From Bacteroidetes bacterium HGW-Bacteroidetes-8 (lineage in GTDB: Bacteria; Bacteroidota; Bacteroidia; Bacteroidales; UBA932), in the NCBI GenBank assembly GCA_002840895.1, contig PHCZ01000001.1:724027-788026 (forward strand): a stretch of 64,000 nucleotides of DNA, written 5' to 3'. Position numbers and translations under genes: made by a program. Of the stretch, positions 14,154 through 20,190 are shown one piece after another (position 1 is the stretch's first letter; each line of letters opens with the position of its first letter). Below the pieces are notes generated by a model. That model saw only the letters and a program-made list of their open reading frames with translations, made no database searches and was not told the origin of the DNA.

Positions 14154-15008
14154 ATGGCAGAATCAAGTAATAAAGAGCATAAATACATTGATATAGAAAA
14201 AATTATCAGCGAAAGAAATGCAGGACTTCTCAATAAGCTCCCTAAGTTTGTTATCCGGATTATATCAAAAATAGTATATCAAAAGGAGACCAACCAACTA
14301 TTAAATAAATATTCAAATTCAATTGGTGCTGAGTTTCTTGAGAATGTGATCAAGGAGTTCAATATTAAACTTGAGGTTGAGGGGTTAGAGAATCTACCTG
14401 AGAATAGAAAGTGTTTTTTTACTGCTAACCACCCTTTTGGTTTTGCAGATGGGCTAATTATTACCTATCTGGTGAGCAAGAGGTATGGAGCACTTAAAGC
14501 AATTGCCAATGATGCATTTATGTTTGTACCTCAACTACATCCATTCATTGTTGCTGTTAATGTATTTGAAGGCTCATCTAAGGATTATCTAAGGGCTCTT
14601 GAGCAAACTTACCGTGAAGATATTGCAATTACCCATTTCCCTGCCGGAATAGTATCCAGAAAAAGGAATGGTAAAATCCAGGATCTTCCCTGGCAGAAGA
14701 GCTTTATTACTAAGGCAATATCAAATCAAAGAGATGTTGTGCCAATATTTTTTCACGGCACAAACTCAAAACTATTCTATAGAATAAACACCATTAGGGA
14801 GTTTTTGGGAATAAAGGCTAATATTGAGCTTATGTTATTGCCAAGAGAGATGTTTCTTAAGAAAAACAAAACTATAAAAGTTACAATAGGGAAACCTATA
14901 TCTTACGATTATTTTGACAAAACACACTCCCATTTTGATTGGGCACAAATAGTGAGATCTAAGGTTTATAAAATGGGAGAGAGTCAAAATATATATTCTA
15001 AAAAATAA
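14154..15008 (+). CDS. Lysophospholipid/glycerol acyltransferase family protein
   Basis: A 284-residue PlsC-superfamily acyltransferase, probably peripheral to the inner membrane. The catalytic motif is H93-PFGFA-D99, the HPFGGLDG type found in hemolysin-like (OlsA-like) acyltransferases rather than the strict NHx4D of PlsC, and the acceptor-site FPAGIVSRKRNGK follows about 60 residues later. There is no strong transmembrane span. Bacteroidota homologs are implicated in ornithine/glycine lipid or phospholipid acylation, but this substrate cannot be fixed from sequence. It stands alone after the ilv operon with its own -7 box. Confidence 0.85.
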   Translation: MAESSNKEHKYIDIEKIISERNAGLLNKLPKFVIRIISKIVYQKETNQLLNKYSNSIGAEFLENVIKEFNIKLEVEGLENLPENRKCFFTANHPFGFADGLIITYLVSKRYGALKAIANDAFMFVPQLHPFIVAVNVFEGSSKDYLRALEQTYREDIAITHFPAGIVSRKRNGKIQDLPWQKSFITKAISNQRDVVPIFFHGTNSKLFYRINTIREFLGIKANIELMLLPREMFLKKNKTIKVTIGKPISYDYFDKTHSHFDWAQIVRSKVYKMGESQNIYSKK

Positions 15009-15092
15009 CGAGAAATGTTTTCTCAATTGCTCCTAAATGCACCCTATTTTATATCCAAATCGTAAAATAATACCTTTTAAATAAAAAAAATA

Positions 15093-15180
15093 GCGCAACA
15101 AACCGCTGCACTAAAAGTTGTAATTAATTTACTACTAAAGGATTTCCTTTAAATAAACCGCAACTTTTAGCAACACGGCA
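15093..15180 (+). repeat. Nested inverted repeats downstream of the acyltransferase
   Basis: A perfect 10-bp arm pair, CTAAAAGTTG (15111-15120) and CAACTTTTAG (15161-15170), encloses a second perfect hairpin AAAGGA-TT-TCCTTT (15137-15150). Outside the large arms CTGC (15106-15109) and GCAG (15177-15180) can also pair. The 5' edge carries GCGCAAC-AAAC-CGCTGC (15093-15109), which shares its flanks with the palindromes at 17837 and 17902. No coding potential is seen. It could be a terminator or processing structure for the acyltransferase mRNA, or part of the regulatory module upstream of leader RNA copy 1. Confidence 0.55.
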
Positions 15181-15211
15181 GTTATCTCTGAAAATCTTCT
15201 CTCAACTTGAC

Positions 15212-15219
15212 TAAATTTG
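15212..15219 (+). promoter_or_regulatory. -7 box upstream of leader RNA copy 1
   Basis: TAAATTTG matches the Bacteroidota -7 consensus exactly. It lies 21 nt before the closing stem at 15241, so the predicted transcript begins just ahead of the structured leader. No clear TTG at -33. The box-to-stem distance is nearly the same (22 nt) in copy 2. Confidence 0.55.
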
Positions 15220-15234
15220 CACCTATGATAATGA

Positions 15235-15337
15235 ATAGATAGAAATCATTATAACATTGGTGTTAATAAATATTCATTCTGCTGTTTTAAAGGTTAGTCG
15301 CCACAGGCCACCAAATGTTATAATGATTTCTGTTTAT
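15235..15337 (+). promoter_or_regulatory. Structured 5' leader RNA, copy 1 (core GTTTTAAAGGTTAGTC)
   Basis: The arms 15241-15262 and 15309-15331 are complementary over 22 bp with one bulged A, extended outward to 15235/15337 through A-U and G-U pairs. They close a 46-nt internal segment containing the core GTTTTAAAGGTTAGTCGCCA at 15284-15303. The same core sits inside an unrelated but also self-complementary stem at 17987-18079. The element lies in the 5' leader of a 45-aa membrane peptide (ATG 15371). A cis-regulatory RNA is the simplest reading. I do not recognise it as a known riboswitch class. Confidence 0.6.
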
Positions 15338-15370
15338 AAACTCTTTCATTATTAATAAATTTTCACATAA

Positions 15371-15508
15371 ATGATAAAAGTAAAATTAAACACCCGGCTC
15401 TTGTTGCTGATTTTAGGTCTGGTTGCAGTTATCTTTTTTATCACATATAGAATGAATCTCTATATTACGAAAGGTCAATCTGATACCATTACCAGCGAAT
15501 CCAAGTAA
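15371..15508 (+). CDS. Small membrane peptide (45 aa)
   Basis: A short frame of 45 codons: a basic N-terminus (MIKVKLNTR), one hydrophobic span of about 17 residues (LLLLILGLVAVIFFITY), then a polar tail ending TITSESK. This is a plausible single-pass membrane peptide, N-terminus inside. It begins 40 nt after leader RNA copy 1 and is the only reasonable frame between 15.0 and 15.6 kb. A small hydrophobic peptide behind a stable 5' hairpin recalls type I toxins, but no antisense RNA is evident. Function unknown. Confidence 0.5.
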   Translation: MIKVKLNTRLLLLILGLVAVIFFITYRMNLYITKGQSDTITSESK

Positions 15509-15588
15509 AAATATTCTCTTTTTAAAAAAATAGTCTGCCACAATTTATCTTTGCCGGTTAACTTGAGCACTCTCAATGAATAAATCTT

Positions 15589-15596
15589 TATATTTG
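15589..15596 (+). promoter_or_regulatory. -7 box for the TPR sensor kinase gene
   Basis: TATATTTG, a perfect -7 match, followed by CATAT. A TTG at 15563-15565 is 23 nt upstream, a little wide. It would give a leader of about 65 nt before the ATG at 15667, including the weak inverted repeat GGGCC/GGCCC-like segment around 15605-15640. Confidence 0.5.
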
Positions 15597-15666
15597 CATA
15601 TAAGGCCCTTTTATCTGATAAATATTCTTTAATAGGGCCAAAGCAAGCTAAAATCAAAGATTTATA

Positions 15667-17829
15667 ATGATTAGAAAAATATCATTCACAATACTACTGC
15701 TTTTTGCTAATTTATTACTAAACGGGCAGAACAAAAAAGCAGACTCTCTGATATCAATACTTCAAGCACACTCAACTATTGACACCGTTAGAGTAAATTT
15801 AATGAACAGAGTCGCCTTAGAGCTGGTTCTTACAAATCCGGAAGCTGCACTTAATTACTCTTTGGAGTCATCAGAGTTAAGTGACAGTCTAGGCTACCAA
15901 AAAGGAAAAGCTAACAGCATTAAAATAACTGGAAGATATTTTCGTGAGAAATTCGACTACAACCTTGCTCTGGATTACTACAAGAGAGCTCTAAATATAT
16001 ACCAAAACATTGGCGACAAAAAGGGAATCTGTTTTTGCAGAAGCGATATGGCCTATGTCTATTTACAAATGGGCAACTACCCAAAAGCTATTGAGTTTTT
16101 TTATGACAGCAGGAATATAGCATTGGAATTCAATGATAAGAGACACGTAATTGAGTGTTTGCAGATGATGGGAGTTATATATCAAATGCAGGGTAACTAT
16201 CCAAAATCTACCGAAGATCTGCAAAATGCTCTTCTTATAGCAGAAGAGATTAATGACAGGAATTTTATGGCAGACATATACACTAACCTTGGGATAGTAT
16301 ATATGAAACAAAATAACAATTTGCTTGCAATAGAGTCCTATCAAAAAGCTCAGACAATTTATGAAGAGCGAAAGAATAACAAAAAGCTTGGCTCACTTTA
16401 TAATAATCTGGGAAAAATCTATGAGGATGAGAATAATCATTCAAAAGCAGAAGAGCTCTATTCAAGGGCATTAAAAATAGAGGAGCTGGAGGAGAATAAA
16501 TTCGGGAAGATGCTCTCTTTGAACAATTTTGGTTCTCTATTAAAAAAACAGAACAAATATACTGCTGCTCTGGATTATTATGATCAATCTCTACTTCTAT
16601 CAAAAGAGACCGGCAGCAAAAATATTATGAGTGAGACCTACTTGAAAATGGCTGAAATCTATTTTGATATGGGCAAGTTAGACAATGCTCTTGAGTTTAC
16701 TGAAAAAAGTCTATCAATTGCAAATGTTATGGGTATTCTTGAGCATCAGAAGATTGGTTACGGACAACTCTCAAAAATACACTCTGCAAAAAACAATTTC
16801 AAAAAAGCTTACGAAAGTCATATTCTGTTTAAGAAATTGAATGATAGTATTTTTAATGAGCAGAACATAAAAGAGGCTGTAAGTCTTGAATACAGGTACA
16901 AATATGAGAAAGAGAAACAGAAACAGGAGTTGGAAAGGTATGAAGAGGATATTATCAAAGCAGAGCAACAGAAGCGGATAAAGCTTATATTATACTCTAC
17001 CATTGCTGGTCTTATTTTACTGGCTATATTACTTTTAGGCGCTCTCTACTCATATTTTGATAAACGTAAAACCAATATAGAACTTATCAAGCAAAAAAAA
17101 GAGATTGAAAAAAAATCCAATGAACTTATCACCTCAAATGCGACAAAAGATAAGTTGTTTTCTATAATTGTGAACGATCTTCAAGATCCCTTCAACAATA
17201 TTACAAATTTATCCAGCTTAATGGCAAGAGAGACAGCAGAGCTTGATCCCGATGTTCTTTCCGATTTCCTTAAATCAATTCATAAATCAGCAAACTTTGC
17301 AAATGAGTTGCTGGGAAACTTAACAGAGTGGGCAAAATCCCAAACAAATAAGCTAGAGGCCGAGAGTGACAGAACCACAATCAAAAATATTTTTATTCTT
17401 GCCAACGACTCAATTGAGCGTATAGCTAATAACAAGGAGATAACACTTAATTTCTCTTTTGATAAAAACATAGATCTATATGTTGATAAAAATATGATTA
17501 ATACTGTATTAAGAAATTTAATAACTAACGCTGTTAAATATAGCTACAGAGGGGGGAGTGTAAATGTAAATGCAGTATTCAATGATAATGAAGTTATAAT
17601 TTCTGTTACAGATTATGGAGTGGGTATTGATAAAGAAAGAGTCTCTAAGTTGTTTCAAATAACAGAAAAGATAGCATCACCCGGAACCGAGAATGAGCAA
17701 GGTGCAGGACTAGGTCTGCTTTTATGCAGGGAGTTTATTGAGAGATTGGGAGGAAAAATATCTGCACAAAGTGAAATTGGAAAGGGGAGTAAATTTTGTT
17801 TTACACTACCCGAGAGATATCTTTCCTAA
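15667..17829 (+). CDS. TPR-containing membrane histidine kinase homolog lacking the H-box His
   Basis: A 720-residue sensor: signal peptide (1-20), a periplasmic array of about eight tetratricopeptide repeats (roughly 80-395, seen as repeats like GNYPKAIEFFYDS and GKLDNALEFTEKS), a Lys/Glu-rich coiled coil (405-437), one transmembrane helix (439-463), a second coiled coil, and a HisKA-HATPase core. The H-box reads LFSIIVNDLQDPF where the family has LFSIIAHDLRSPF, so the phospho-acceptor His is Asn at 503 (codon AAC at 17173). The N-box NLITNAVKYS, G1 DYGVGID and G2 GAGLGLLLC look intact. It may bind ATP without autophosphorylating, acting as a pseudokinase or in a heterodimer. No response regulator gene adjoins it. 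Confidence 0.88.
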   Translation: MIRKISFTILLLFANLLLNGQNKKADSLISILQAHSTIDTVRVNLMNRVALELVLTNPEAALNYSLESSELSDSLGYQKGKANSIKITGRYFREKFDYNLALDYYKRALNIYQNIGDKKGICFCRSDMAYVYLQMGNYPKAIEFFYDSRNIALEFNDKRHVIECLQMMGVIYQMQGNYPKSTEDLQNALLIAEEINDRNFMADIYTNLGIVYMKQNNNLLAIESYQKAQTIYEERKNNKKLGSLYNNLGKIYEDENNHSKAEELYSRALKIEELEENKFGKMLSLNNFGSLLKKQNKYTAALDYYDQSLLLSKETGSKNIMSETYLKMAEIYFDMGKLDNALEFTEKSLSIANVMGILEHQKIGYGQLSKIHSAKNNFKKAYESHILFKKLNDSIFNEQNIKEAVSLEYRYKYEKEKQKQELERYEEDIIKAEQQKRIKLILYSTIAGLILLAILLLGALYSYFDKRKTNIELIKQKKEIEKKSNELITSNATKDKLFSIIVNDLQDPFNNITNLSSLMARETAELDPDVLSDFLKSIHKSANFANELLGNLTEWAKSQTNKLEAESDRTTIKNIFILANDSIERIANNKEITLNFSFDKNIDLYVDKNMINTVLRNLITNAVKYSYRGGSVNVNAVFNDNEVIISVTDYGVGIDKERVSKLFQITEKIASPGTENEQGAGLGLLLCREFIERLGGKISAQSEIGKGSKFCFTLPERYLS

Positions 17830-17836
17830 TCATTCG

Positions 17837-17919
17837 TGCGCAACTTTGCGCTGCATAAAATGTTTTATATTTTTAAATATCAGGTATATATATACGTAAA
17901 ATGCGCAACTTTGCGCTGC
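17837..17919 (+). repeat. Two direct copies of a GCGCAA/TTGCGC palindrome
   Basis: TGCGCAACTTTGCGCTGC occurs identically at 17837-17854 and 17902-17919, 65 bp apart. Each contains the dyad GCGCAA-CT-TTGCGC, which can be a hairpin in RNA or an operator in DNA. The first lies 8 bp after the kinase stop; the second is 38 bp before the -7 box of leader RNA copy 2. A variant, GCGCAAC-AAAC-CGCTGC, lies at 15093-15109 upstream of leader RNA copy 1. Confidence 0.65.
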
Positions 17920-17940
17920 CAATAAAAAATTGCTTTTTTT
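17915..17940 (+). terminator. Possible weak intrinsic terminator after the TPR kinase gene
   Basis: A short stem (GC-AAT with ATT-GC, loop of A residues) just after the second GCGCAA palindrome is followed directly by seven T residues (17934-17940). The stem is short, so it may work only together with the preceding palindromic hairpin. Confidence 0.35.
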
Positions 17941-17956
17941 CTTCAAATCCCAACAT

Positions 17957-17964
17957 TACATTTG
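17957..17964 (+). promoter_or_regulatory. -7 box upstream of leader RNA copy 2
   Basis: TACATTTG matches the -7 consensus. A TTG at 17930-17932 is 24 nt upstream, wider than ideal. The leader stem starts 22 nt downstream, mirroring the layout at 15212/15241. Confidence 0.55.
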
Positions 17965-17986
17965 CAGTAACATCGTTTCCGGCATC

Positions 17987-18079
17987 GTGGAGATCAATAC
18001 AATTACTGTTGATAATATTTATTTGCAAATTGTTTTAAAGGTTAGTCACCATTAAATAAGGTTAAGTATCGATCTCCAC
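17987..18079 (+). promoter_or_regulatory. Structured 5' leader RNA, copy 2 (core GTTTTAAAGGTTAGTC)
   Basis: The arms GTGGAGATCAATAC (17987-18000) and GTATCGATCTCCAC (18066-18079) pair at 13 of 14 positions and enclose 65 nt containing GTTTTAAAGGTTAGTCACCA at 18032-18051. The core matches copy 1 except for one purine change. A second loosely shared stretch, GTTRATAA followed by an AT-rich run ending in TGC, lies upstream of the core in both. The closing stems have no sequence in common, as expected when structure rather than sequence is selected. It ends 18 nt before the ATG at 18098. Confidence 0.6.
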
Positions 18080-18097
18080 TATTTCCAAGTTTATTGT

Positions 18098-18475
18098 ATG
18101 AACAGGCAATTAGCAAATAGATTGATAAGTTCAAAAATCCAGGAAAAAATTGGGTTTAGTTATGTTATCTTTTCAATTATAATAACAATCTCAATGGTGC
18201 TTAGTACTCAAAAAGCAGAGGCCTCGTCTACAACCTCAACTTTCTATAAAATTGATGTAACAAACTGCATTAAATGCTATCATTGTGAAGAAGTTGCCAG
18301 TCACTCTATTGCTATTGGCAACGATGAGTATCCCTACTGGATAAACGGTTCAATTTCCGGAAATTACAGAATTTATGTAAATCCACCACAAGAGTACCTG
18401 GAAGATTTAGATGAAGCAATAGCAGATTGCCCGATGGAGTGTATATCTAAAAGCACCCACCAAAAGAGAAAGTGA
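18098..18475 (+). CDS. Exported or membrane-anchored ferredoxin-like 4Fe-4S protein
   Basis: A 125-residue protein with an N-terminal hydrophobic span (about 20-36) and a possible cleavage site after AEA (about 43), followed by a single ferredoxin-like module. CIKCYHC supplies a CxxCxxC triplet near residue 60 and DCPMECI near the C-terminus supplies the fourth Cys followed by Pro, the usual [4Fe-4S] pattern. The second half of a 2x[4Fe-4S] ferredoxin is absent. Export of a labile cluster is unusual because clusters are normally built in the cytoplasm. A Tat route would need a twin-arginine motif, which I do not see, so N-in membrane anchoring is an alternative. The gene lies behind leader RNA copy 2. 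Confidence 0.7.
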   Translation: MNRQLANRLISSKIQEKIGFSYVIFSIIITISMVLSTQKAEASSTTSTFYKIDVTNCIKCYHCEEVASHSIAIGNDEYPYWINGSISGNYRIYVNPPQEYLEDLDEAIADCPMECISKSTHQKRK

Positions 18476-18543
18476 AGTTGAAAATGGAATAATTTTTTTT
18501 AGCTCTCAAATAGTGCACATTCAATATTTCTCTATATTTGTGA

Positions 18544-20190
18544 ATGTGTAAATTTTTTTCTGTTATTTTTTCATTCTTGCTTTTTTCCTGTACATCAAGC
18601 TACAGCGAACAAGATTCTCATTTTGACAGATTGAAAAGGTGGGACTCCCTAATGTTTATGAATCCGGCTTCTGTGATGGATTCACTTCAGAATTTCAAAC
18701 CGGAAAAACTCTCTGAATCAAATTTTGCCTACTTCACTTTACTCTCAACTATTGGGAGCTGTATGAACGATATTGATATTACAGATGACTCAACTATAAC
18801 CAAAACAGTTGAGTGGTACAGGTCAAAATCTGACTATTTTAATTTATGTCGCTCTCTAATTTTTTGCTCTGCAGCTAATTTTAATAAGCAAATCTTTTTG
18901 AACGACTCAATAAAACATATTAATTTAACTGAGGCAGAAGATCTGTTTGCTCGAAACAAAGTCAAAGACCCTGTTACAGAGGCATTTTTAAATAAATATC
19001 TCGCAAAAAAATCGATACACTTGTTCTATTCTAATAGATCTGACCTCTTGCCATCAACTCTTAAAGCAGAGGAGTATATCAAGAGAGCAGAGACTCTTTT
19101 TATGAAATTGGGAAACAAACGAGAGATGCAACTCACCAATTTATACCTCTCGGAAATTGTAATAGGTGTATATGAATATGATAAAGAGTTGGAAATTCTA
19201 AATAAAATAGCAGGATTCCCGGATTTAGAACAGGATATTAGACCGTTACTTAACAAAAAATTTGCACATTTATTTCAAAAAAAAGGCGAATACGACAAAT
19301 CAATTCACTATTTAAAATCTGTGATAAGAGACTCTCTTTTTGGCATCAGTTCAAAAATTAAAAAATCTGATATAGTAAATGATATTGCGGTTATATATGA
19401 CATAAAAAATCAACCTGACAGCGCAATTAAATATGCAATTTTATACAAGGATTTAATGTTGAAAGATCTCCAAAAATCCCATATTGGTTATCAATTTCTT
19501 TCAAAAATTTATGAAAAAAACGGAGATTATACTAAGGCTCTGGATTTATATAAAAAATACTCCAATTATACAGCAAAACTATACACAATTGAGCTTAAGA
19601 ATAGAACATTACAGAATAAATCAGAGAACAATCTGCTTATTAATAAGATCCGTCAAAAAGAATCTCTGTCAAAAAGTATAATCTTTGCATTAATTTCCTC
19701 ATTGGTAGGTCTAATCGTTACTATCTTATATCTTAAATCTGGCCAAAGAAAAGATAACACCAAATTAGATAGAGAGTTGGATGAGCTTAAAAAACATATT
19801 GATAGCCAAGAGAAGTCATTAAAAAAAATGTGGATTACAAACGAGGTATTAAAAACAACAGCAGGAAAATACCCCGATCTTATCAGGGATGTTCACAGAG
19901 AGGCAGCAAAGTGCAGGAGAGAGGCAAAAGGTACATATGACAACCTTAACACAATTATAGATGATTCCAGGCAAATTTCCAGAGAGATGATCTCAGAAAT
20001 AGCTAAAAACAAATCTTTTGCTAAAAACTTTCCTGAAATTTTCAATAAAGTTGAGCTCTCTCATTACGAAAAAATTATATACGCCCTCTTTAGCCTGGGA
20101 TACGATGCCAAAGAGATTGCAAATTTCTTTTCGGTCTCACCCTCAACCATAAGAGCGGTTAAGACCAGACTTAAAGATAAGCACGAATAA
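18544..20190 (+). CDS. TPR lipoprotein/membrane regulator with LuxR-like HTH
   Basis: A 548-residue one-component transmembrane regulator of a type common in Bacteroidota. It has a lipoprotein signal (MCKFFSVIFSFLLFSC, C16), a periplasmic helical/TPR region (about 170-345, e.g. KKGEYDKSIHYLKS and KNGDYTKALDLYKK), a membrane helix (376-398), a coiled coil (400-430), and a C-terminal HTH (505-546: LSHYEKIIYALFSLGYDAKEIANFF then VSPSTIRAVKTRL). The HTH has the LuxR/sigma-region-4 pattern and should bind DNA from the inner face of the membrane. If the lipobox is processed the protein would be tethered at both ends, so the signal may instead stay as a second anchor. Target genes unknown; the local palindromes are candidates. 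Confidence 0.85.
   Translation: MCKFFSVIFSFLLFSCTSSYSEQDSHFDRLKRWDSLMFMNPASVMDSLQNFKPEKLSESNFAYFTLLSTIGSCMNDIDITDDSTITKTVEWYRSKSDYFNLCRSLIFCSAANFNKQIFLNDSIKHINLTEAEDLFARNKVKDPVTEAFLNKYLAKKSIHLFYSNRSDLLPSTLKAEEYIKRAETLFMKLGNKREMQLTNLYLSEIVIGVYEYDKELEILNKIAGFPDLEQDIRPLLNKKFAHLFQKKGEYDKSIHYLKSVIRDSLFGISSKIKKSDIVNDIAVIYDIKNQPDSAIKYAILYKDLMLKDLQKSHIGYQFLSKIYEKNGDYTKALDLYKKYSNYTAKLYTIELKNRTLQNKSENNLLINKIRQKESLSKSIIFALISSLVGLIVTILYLKSGQRKDNTKLDRELDELKKHIDSQEKSLKKMWITNEVLKTTAGKYPDLIRDVHREAAKCRREAKGTYDNLNTIIDDSRQISREMISEIAKNKSFAKNFPEIFNKVELSHYEKIIYALFSLGYDAKEIANFFSVSPSTIRAVKTRLKDKHE

Follow-up and report, generated by a model that had tools for sequence, protein, structure and literature searches.

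The window analysed here is a 64,000-nt stretch of contig PHCZ01000001.1 of a Bacteroidales bacterium, and all coordinates are counted from its first letter. It contains two hairpin RNA elements, copy 1 and copy 2, each preceded by a promoter box and by two further upstream boxes, together with a gene encoding a tetratricopeptide repeat (TPR) protein with a C-terminal helix-turn-helix (HTH) region, the candidate regulator of these boxes. A sequence-only reading of this DNA had described the two elements but overlooked the regulator-like gene (18544-20190) as well as the box pairs upstream of copy 1 (15093/15158) and copy 2 (17838/17903). The features of the locus are listed below, where labels beginning with G denote genomes (and, further on, labels beginning with L denote loci).

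15093..15109, + strand: copy 1 upstream box 1, GCGCAACAAACCGCTGC, 65 bp before box 2
15158..15174, + strand: copy 1 upstream box 2, CCGCAACTTTTAGCAAC, starting 54 bp before the -7 box
15212..15219, + strand: copy 1 -7 promoter box, TAAATTTG, from the sequence and its fixed distance from box 2
15241..15258, + strand: copy 1 closing stem (P1), 5' arm, from folding, covariation and RNAalifold
15284..15303, + strand: copy 1 conserved core, with GGTTAGTC at 15292-15299
15314..15331, + strand: copy 1 P1, 3' arm, from folding and covariation
15371..15508, + strand: open reading frame (ORF) of 45 amino acids with one hydrophobic stretch, of the same length in G008 and G016
15667..17829, + strand: TPR histidine kinase between both RNA copies, missing from the single-copy locus form of G009
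17838..17854, + strand: copy 2 upstream box 1, GCGCAACTTTGCGCTGC, from box scans and the spacing table
17903..17919, + strand: copy 2 upstream box 2, GCGCAACTTTGCGCTGC, from box scans and the spacing table
17957..17964, + strand: copy 2 -7 promoter box, TACATTTG, from the sequence and the spacing table
17987..18000, + strand: copy 2 P1, 5' arm, from folding and covariation
18032..18051, + strand: copy 2 conserved core, with GGTTAGTC at 18040-18047
18066..18079, + strand: copy 2 P1, 3' arm, from folding and covariation
18098..18475, + strand: [4Fe-4S] ferredoxin-like protein with an N-terminal hydrophobic stretch (Fer4_15, 23.3 bits, cut-off 22.4)
18544..20190, + strand: lipoprotein-like TPR protein, the candidate regulator of the boxes, with a long helix that includes a hydrophobic stretch and with a LuxR-type HTH at its C-terminus

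Both copies showed the layout originally proposed for them. A TAnnTTTG box, corresponding to the Bacteroidota-type -7 consensus, is followed after 21-22 nt by the long closing stem P1 (29 nt past the start of the box in copy 1 and 30 nt in copy 2), the core GTTTTAAAGGTTAGTC(G/A)CCA located in the P1 loop, the second stem arm and an ORF starting 39 nt (copy 1) or 18 nt (copy 2) after P1. The two 20-nt core segments, at 15284-15303 and 18032-18051, were the sole places in the window matching the core with 3 mismatches or fewer, 100 dinucleotide shuffles returned a mean of 0.00 matches, and the organism's own genome contained no other match below 3 mismatches. Folding calculations returned an energy of -33.8 kcal/mol for copy 1 (z -6.8) and of -22.8 kcal/mol for copy 2 (z -3.8), none of 200 shuffles being as stable in either case, and the pairing of 13 out of 14 stem positions in copy 2 was confirmed. 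The statement that the two stems share no sequence was instead overstated, as the aligned P1 arms of the copies are identical at 10/18 and 9/18 positions; because of this agreement, the copies look like diverged duplicates of one structured RNA.

Relatives of the RNAs were searched for in a sample of 25 genomes of the genus. An exact pattern search returned copy-1 relatives in G016 and G008, while the regions upstream of ferredoxin relatives contained copy-2 relatives in G008 and G016, a single copy in G009 and one RNA each in G001, G014, G015 and G023. These last four RNAs ("d-type") have a different, GC-rich P1 sequence and keep GGTTAGTC. An alignment of 11 rows from 8 of the 25 genomes was the basis of model R1 and of the covariation counts, which were restricted to these rows since a 14-row alignment misplaces the copies of G020 and G007. 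The R1 scan of the 25 genomes recovered its own 11 source rows and a new place in G004 (30 bits, E 0.05), having P1, GGTTAG and its own box pair. The G020 and G007 copies were found as hairpins beside regulator genes; R1 is weak on both (16.9 bits, E 2, and 17.9 bits, E 1.3, respectively) and gives a higher score, 19.4 bits, to a different hairpin in L154, but in the two copies the box pair is followed by the promoter, P1 and GGTTAG just as in the other members. The RNAs with the core GGUUAG, hereafter type A, therefore total 14 copies in 11 genomes (11 aligned and 3 divergent), so that homologs of the original pair do occur in related genomes.

The 11-row alignment was then used to evaluate the structure. 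Double-sided changes were detected in 15 of the 20 P1 pairs, a number reached by none of 500 shuffles, and P1 cells were 93.4% paired against 38-54% in slid controls. The whole given structure, consisting of P1 and a 3-pair core hairpin, was 94.1% paired compared with 77.6% in shuffles, and for four of the five covariation measures 0/500 shuffles reached the observed value. RNAalifold predicted P1 unaided, with compensatory change in 13 of 17 pairs. The GGU/RCC core hairpin can form in 7 of the 11 rows and hardly varies, few loop positions are invariant across the alignment, and GGTTAG is retained where the stem sequence is replaced. The data support the view that type A P1 is a helix under selection for RNA structure, as had been suspected from the two copies.

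Beyond the genus the signal was faint. At E<=0.01, R1 found no match outside the own genome in 295 genomes of the order (with strict filters and 14 candidates scored per genome), and in 149 genomes of the family it returned two weak matches beyond the genus, G151 (E 0.05) and G110 (E 0.08). Pattern matches with 2 mismatches in G050 and G054 were dropped, as no such stem could be seen by eye. Rfam scans returned no gathering hit in the window and only tRNAs in 13 related loci, and none of the four matches with E<=5 in 15000-18600 covers the RNAs; a known RNA family was rejected on these scans, in agreement with the initial reading, which did not recognise the core as a known riboswitch or leader. 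Two similar inverted-repeat structures within 3 kb might also be duplicated mobile-element ends or repeats. This origin is scarcely credible, since the elements have a fixed position relative to the promoter and to syntenic genes in several genomes, their stems show compensatory changes, and the own genome lacks further core copies below 3 mismatches; synteny and covariation thus disfavour a mobile-element end, and nothing points to the duplicated transposon end that the sequence-only reading had likewise discarded.

In the 25 genomes, 27 hairpin RNAs were counted in 16, namely 14 of type A, 8 of type B (own-genome example L139:4436-4572), 4 of type C and one preceding a peroxiredoxin gene (G017_C32). 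Type B P1 also covaries, with 12 of 19 pairs double-changed and 0/500 shuffles for four of five measures. Loci of types B and C are orthologous: in each of the 9 others that have the convergent gene, its identity to the own-genome counterpart is 67-95%, the G014 type B/C locus shares the upstream gene, and G009_C56 is cut by the contig end. No gene follows 14 of the 27 RNAs, i.e., those of G020, G007 and types B and C, and none of these has a co-directional ORF of at least 30 amino acids beginning in the first 99 nt past P1. In 12 of these 14 a convergent gene ends 15-63 nt past P1, while in G009_C56 and G014_C99 the contig ends 450 and 152 nt after the RNA. The box-pair promoter architecture described below precedes the gene-free RNAs in 13 loci, or 14 counting G005, which lacks a clear box pair. 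With so many of its members followed by no gene, the set probably consists of RNAs that are themselves regulatory. The remaining 13 are followed by genes for a ferredoxin (8), the 45-amino-acid ORF (3), a lipoprotein-like protein with no Pfam match (1) and a peroxiredoxin (1).

These counts bear on the possibility that the RNA is a cis-acting leader, i.e., a riboswitch, protein-binding leader or attenuator controlling only the downstream gene. An ORF occurs within about 75 nt after 13/27 RNAs and after 12/14 of type A, some of the genes that follow have redox-related products (ferredoxin, peroxiredoxin), copies 1 and 2 do sit in 5' leaders, and the sequence after P1 is T-rich in d_G014, d_G001 and G004 (6, 6 and 8 of 10 nt, with no background control). 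However, the gene-free RNAs make up 14 of the 27, the downstream genes are unlike each other instead of functionally related, G010 and G006 have a ferredoxin after a box pair with no RNA seen, and the 11-row alignment has few invariant positions in the loop. Since the gene-free RNAs stand alone, 12 meeting a convergent gene and two a contig end, a leader function is not their general role, and we regard a purely cis-acting leader as unlikely. The original description of the elements as simply 5' leaders of membrane-protein genes is not supported in that form, given the gene-free RNAs, the dissimilar downstream genes and the box pairs lacking an RNA.

P1 might alternatively be a mere transcription terminator or insulator enclosing a core without a function of its own. 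The 10 nt after P1 contain 7, 7 and 9 T in G020, G000_b and G002; over the tabulated RNAs the count is 4 in copies 1 and 2 and 5-9 in the other 15, a range for which there is no background control. Copies 1 and 2 are without a T-run, GGTTAG persists in RNAs that have a different stem sequence, and the RNA loops span 40-90 nt, far exceeding those of intrinsic terminators, which are much shorter. The terminator scan of the window allows loops of 3-8 nt only and is unable to detect P1. A terminator or insulator as the sole function appears very unlikely.

All 14 type A copies are preceded by two direct-repeat boxes in the same orientation, 64-65 bp apart. In the 18 tabulated loci (14 type A and 4 type B/C) the spacing is 65 bp in 11 and 64 bp in 7, and in 17 of them the -7 box lies 54 bp past the start of box 2; the G009 distance reads 53 bp owing to a longer, 9-letter anchor. 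The consensus in most loci is roughly YGMAAC-N4-YGMAAC, a direct repeat with a 10-bp period, from which the boxes of G004, G010 and G006 depart. The second box of copy 1 (CCGCAACTTTTAGCAAC) is a poorer motif match and was missed by the genus-wide box scan. Most of the box pairs adjoin a TPR-HTH gene. When the 25 genomes were scanned, no mismatch-free box fell outside these loci: of the 20 detected, 18 neighbour a TPR-HTH gene and the other 2 belong to copy 1. A motif-free scan of the 300 nt after 26 TPR-HTH genes, where a strong repeat was defined as at least 14/17 identical letters, returned strong repeats at spacings of 64 bp (5), 65 bp (3) and 73 bp (1), and none at any of the other 93 spacings in the range 25-120. 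A motif-based search placed the best pair at 64 or 65 in 16/26 regions, a value that is only descriptive because the motif was drawn from the same loci; the motif-free scan is the actual test. G023_C15 was scored as a miss in both repeat scans because its 65-bp repeat lies about 290 nt out, with a TAATTTTG box 53-54 nt from the second repeat by hand count. At this locus (L154, about 1600-2000) the repeat pair and the TAATTTTG box are located about 290-410 nt after the TPR-HTH gene, and a small ORF after them reads like a double-glycine leader peptide.

Further box pairs were recorded in the course of these scans. In L136 and L137 (G010 and G006) a second repeat pair with 64-bp spacing, which in L136 reads GCAACTTTTGTGTAACT / GCAACTTGAGTGCAACT, lies about 245 bp before the TPR-HTH gene, as if these two regulator genes were self-regulated. 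A contig-wide scan for CGCAAC-type box pairs, from which own-genome records may be left out, returned 46 stretches, among which the Bacteroidota recognisable by name were nine of this genus, three contigs of Capnocytophaga canis and a single Cytophagia record. The pattern also retrieves Pasteurellaceae, Capnocytophaga and other stretches (L083-L128), possibly repeat arrays with a period near 65 bp. A CRISPR-like array (clustered regularly interspaced short palindromic repeats) as the source of the 65-bp boxes was set aside, their common part being 17 bp long and paired at a fixed distance from the promoter.

The family to which the protein encoded at 18544-20190 belongs combines TPR repeats with a lipobox-like stretch at the N-terminus, a long helix that includes a hydrophobic stretch, and an HTH of the LuxR type. 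The lipobox and the membrane span were read from the sequence and suggest a membrane-anchored topology. Among 28 members, TPR_12 was detected in 22 and GerE in 8 at E<=0.01; the window member itself reached GerE only with E 0.085, below the Pfam cut-off. The family profile matches VraR-type DNA-binding chains over columns 488-539 (E 0.0008-0.006) and the predicted structure model of the window protein ends in three C-terminal helices, and at the level of the family the C-terminal HTH is of the LuxR (GerE) type. A single-sequence search found 35 places in 19 of 60 relatives, 18 of these 19 belonging to the genus; at E<=1e-10, relatives of the window protein occurred in 18/25 genomes of the genus versus 1/35 others. 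The genes are associated with the RNAs: a hairpin score of at least 30 was obtained after 14/24 TPR-HTH genes of the genus versus 2/105 other genes of the same loci (Mann-Whitney p 1.7e-4, in a test run after the hairpins had been seen and on loci that include non-independent orthologs). The RNAs behind these 14 genes stand alone.

By profile search the TPR-HTH family extends to 10 of 25 genera of the taxonomic family. Outside the genus 14 loci were retrieved and 11 of them inspected, one of which lacked downstream sequence; no 64/65-bp repeat pair was present, the two TPR-HTH genes of G035 likewise having none downstream, and the top hairpin score was 25.5. In L159 and L160, both outside the genus, TPR-HTH genes lie directly before small secreted-protein-like ORFs with no hairpin between, as if the structured RNA had been added in this genus.

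On the basis of these sequence comparisons, the boxes are most likely bound by the neighbouring TPR-HTH lipoprotein, our candidate regulator. Another protein might bind them, for example an OmpR/PhoB-type partner of the kinase at 15667-17829, the TPR-HTH gene being a mere neighbour. OmpR/PhoB-type sites are usually direct repeats with a 10-11 bp period, which the boxes resemble, and a histidine kinase does lie between the copies. Among 10 annotated loci, however, the kinase is found only in L035 and L036, the two that have both RNA copies, while the TPR-HTH gene is present in 10/10, and we consider a different regulator improbable.

On balance, we lean towards the interpretation that these are genus-restricted structured regulatory RNAs under a membrane-tethered one-component regulator. 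The periplasmic TPR part of the protein would sense an envelope signal and its cytoplasmic HTH would act on transcription by binding the two boxes, which are spaced 64-65 bp and of which the nearer begins 54 bp ahead of the TAnnTTTG box. The type A RNA, with its GGUUAG core, would be one member of a set of hairpin RNAs, about 85-140 nt long, that is confined to the genus, and the RNA itself would be the regulatory product, a stem-closed small RNA presenting a short conserved core through which it would most likely act in trans. P1 would protect the RNA ends and perhaps serve as a terminator in the T-rich loci. The window RNAs would also form mRNA 5' ends, with the 45-amino-acid membrane protein and the anchored ferredoxin as co-outputs. 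Of this picture, the comparison shows the conserved structure, the box geometry, the association with TPR-HTH genes and the existence of gene-free loci, and transcription, binding by the regulator, its topology and action in trans are inferred. A more specific model, which we advance tentatively, is that every TPR-HTH paralog drives a structured RNA of its own from a promoter of rigid geometry with an exchangeable output (RNA, RNA plus protein, or protein), the RNA being trans-acting, free in its stem sequence and constrained in its pairing and, in type A, in the six-base core.

Several observations weigh against this interpretation. Further pair types did not exceed shuffles in type A (281/500) or type B (342/500), and the 11 rows come from few lineages, four of them near-identical. 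Position and P1 are common to types A, B and C and to the G017_C32 RNA, but their loop sequences differ, so that a common origin is unproven. Apart from the genome-wide exact scan, box pairs were mostly found by looking beside TPR-HTH genes, and copy 1 and the G004 leader do not adjoin such a gene. The correspondence between genes, boxes and RNAs is also incomplete: G005 (type B) has a hairpin and no clear box pair; five box pairs lack a convincing RNA (G016_C4, G017_C4, where the hairpin has z -0.4, G010_a, G006_C14 and G023_C15), those of G016_C4 and of G010_a and G006_C14 preceding an outer-membrane protein and ferredoxins, respectively; and the TPR-HTH genes G004_C13, G006_C4 and G010_b have neither box pair nor RNA. 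The ORFs close behind copies 1 and 2 and the presence of only 4 T in the 10 nt after their P1 fit a leader equally well. Finally, two target searches gave nothing of general validity. The three closest genomes (G000, G008 and G016) share no 10-nt complement of the core, which was rejected as an antisense seed of that length, and over 22 loci the RNA loops paired no better with the start region of their own regulator than with those of other regulators (mean -18.2 vs -19.9 kcal/mol). As cognate pairs are not favoured, feedback on the own regulator mRNA is not claimed. A complement to GGUUAGU (7 pairs, or 9 with G-U, by hand count) was noticed at regulator codons 3-5 in G020 and G007 only (L135 and L138).

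The history of the window locus can be traced by comparison with G009, where the gene order is acyltransferase, RNA, anchored ferredoxin, TPR-HTH, whereas the window reads acyltransferase, RNA copy 1, 45-amino-acid ORF, histidine kinase, RNA copy 2, ferredoxin, TPR-HTH. From these orders, a local duplication accompanied by the arrival of the kinase would explain the twin RNAs. The membrane span common to both downstream proteins is probably a by-product of that duplication, given the single-copy order of G009 and the d-type ferredoxins, which begin almost directly at the cluster motif. The 45-amino-acid ORF behaves as a gene in three sequence comparisons, with fewer amino-acid than silent changes (Ka 0.08-0.17, Ks 0.40-0.72). 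In the 5' leader of the kinase gene (15590-15665), a separate TATATTTG box precedes a GGCCCT...AGGGCC stem-loop, for which Rfam returned only a below-threshold, implausible Histone3 match. The acyltransferase at 14154-15008 matches NCBIfam GlsA (lyso-glycine lipid O-acyltransferase; 300.8 bits, cut-off 260) and ends a gene run resembling branched-chain amino acid synthesis.

RybB and MicA are envelope-stress small RNAs of enterobacteria. The RNAs described here resemble them as stand-alone short RNAs with a short conserved stretch, proposed to be under an envelope-signal regulator, but differ in phylum, in being closed end to end by P1, in having no target found and in their candidate regulator, a membrane-tethered one-component protein adjoining the RNA. 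LuxR-type membrane-bound one-component regulators with TPR sensors share with our family the TPR, the hydrophobic long helix and the GerE-like HTH, whereas the near restriction of relatives to the genus and the coupling to a box pair and an RNA are particular to the present case. In the portion of the literature covered by our search, neither a description of these RNAs or of the box pair nor LuxR-type TPR regulators coupled to a 64-65 bp box pair and an RNA were met, and the RNA set is so far undescribed. MasB of Bacteroides thetaiotaomicron is a narrowly conserved Bacteroides small RNA of about 100 nt linked to a TPR protein, as it represses the mRNA of BT_1675 with Cur as its activator (PMC10994844); in our system the TPR-HTH protein is instead the proposed activator, the comparison being one of descriptions and not of sequences. 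HMP2_4205 is a candidate RNA of 132 bp, mostly from Bacteroidetes, predicted to be terminator-like and adjoining TPR genes as here; unlike our RNAs it is described as palindromic, and it too was compared by description only (PMC8040213).

Outside model organisms, it is rare for a regulatory RNA to be linked with a signal or with a regulator. In this genus, comparison alone yields the fold of the RNA, the probable geometry of its operator, a likely regulator and a series of natural variants carrying the RNA alone, the RNA plus a gene or the gene alone, and with these in hand direct tests are possible. If the proposed interpretation is true, the system would provide, for the Bacteroidota, an example of a membrane sensor that works via a small RNA.

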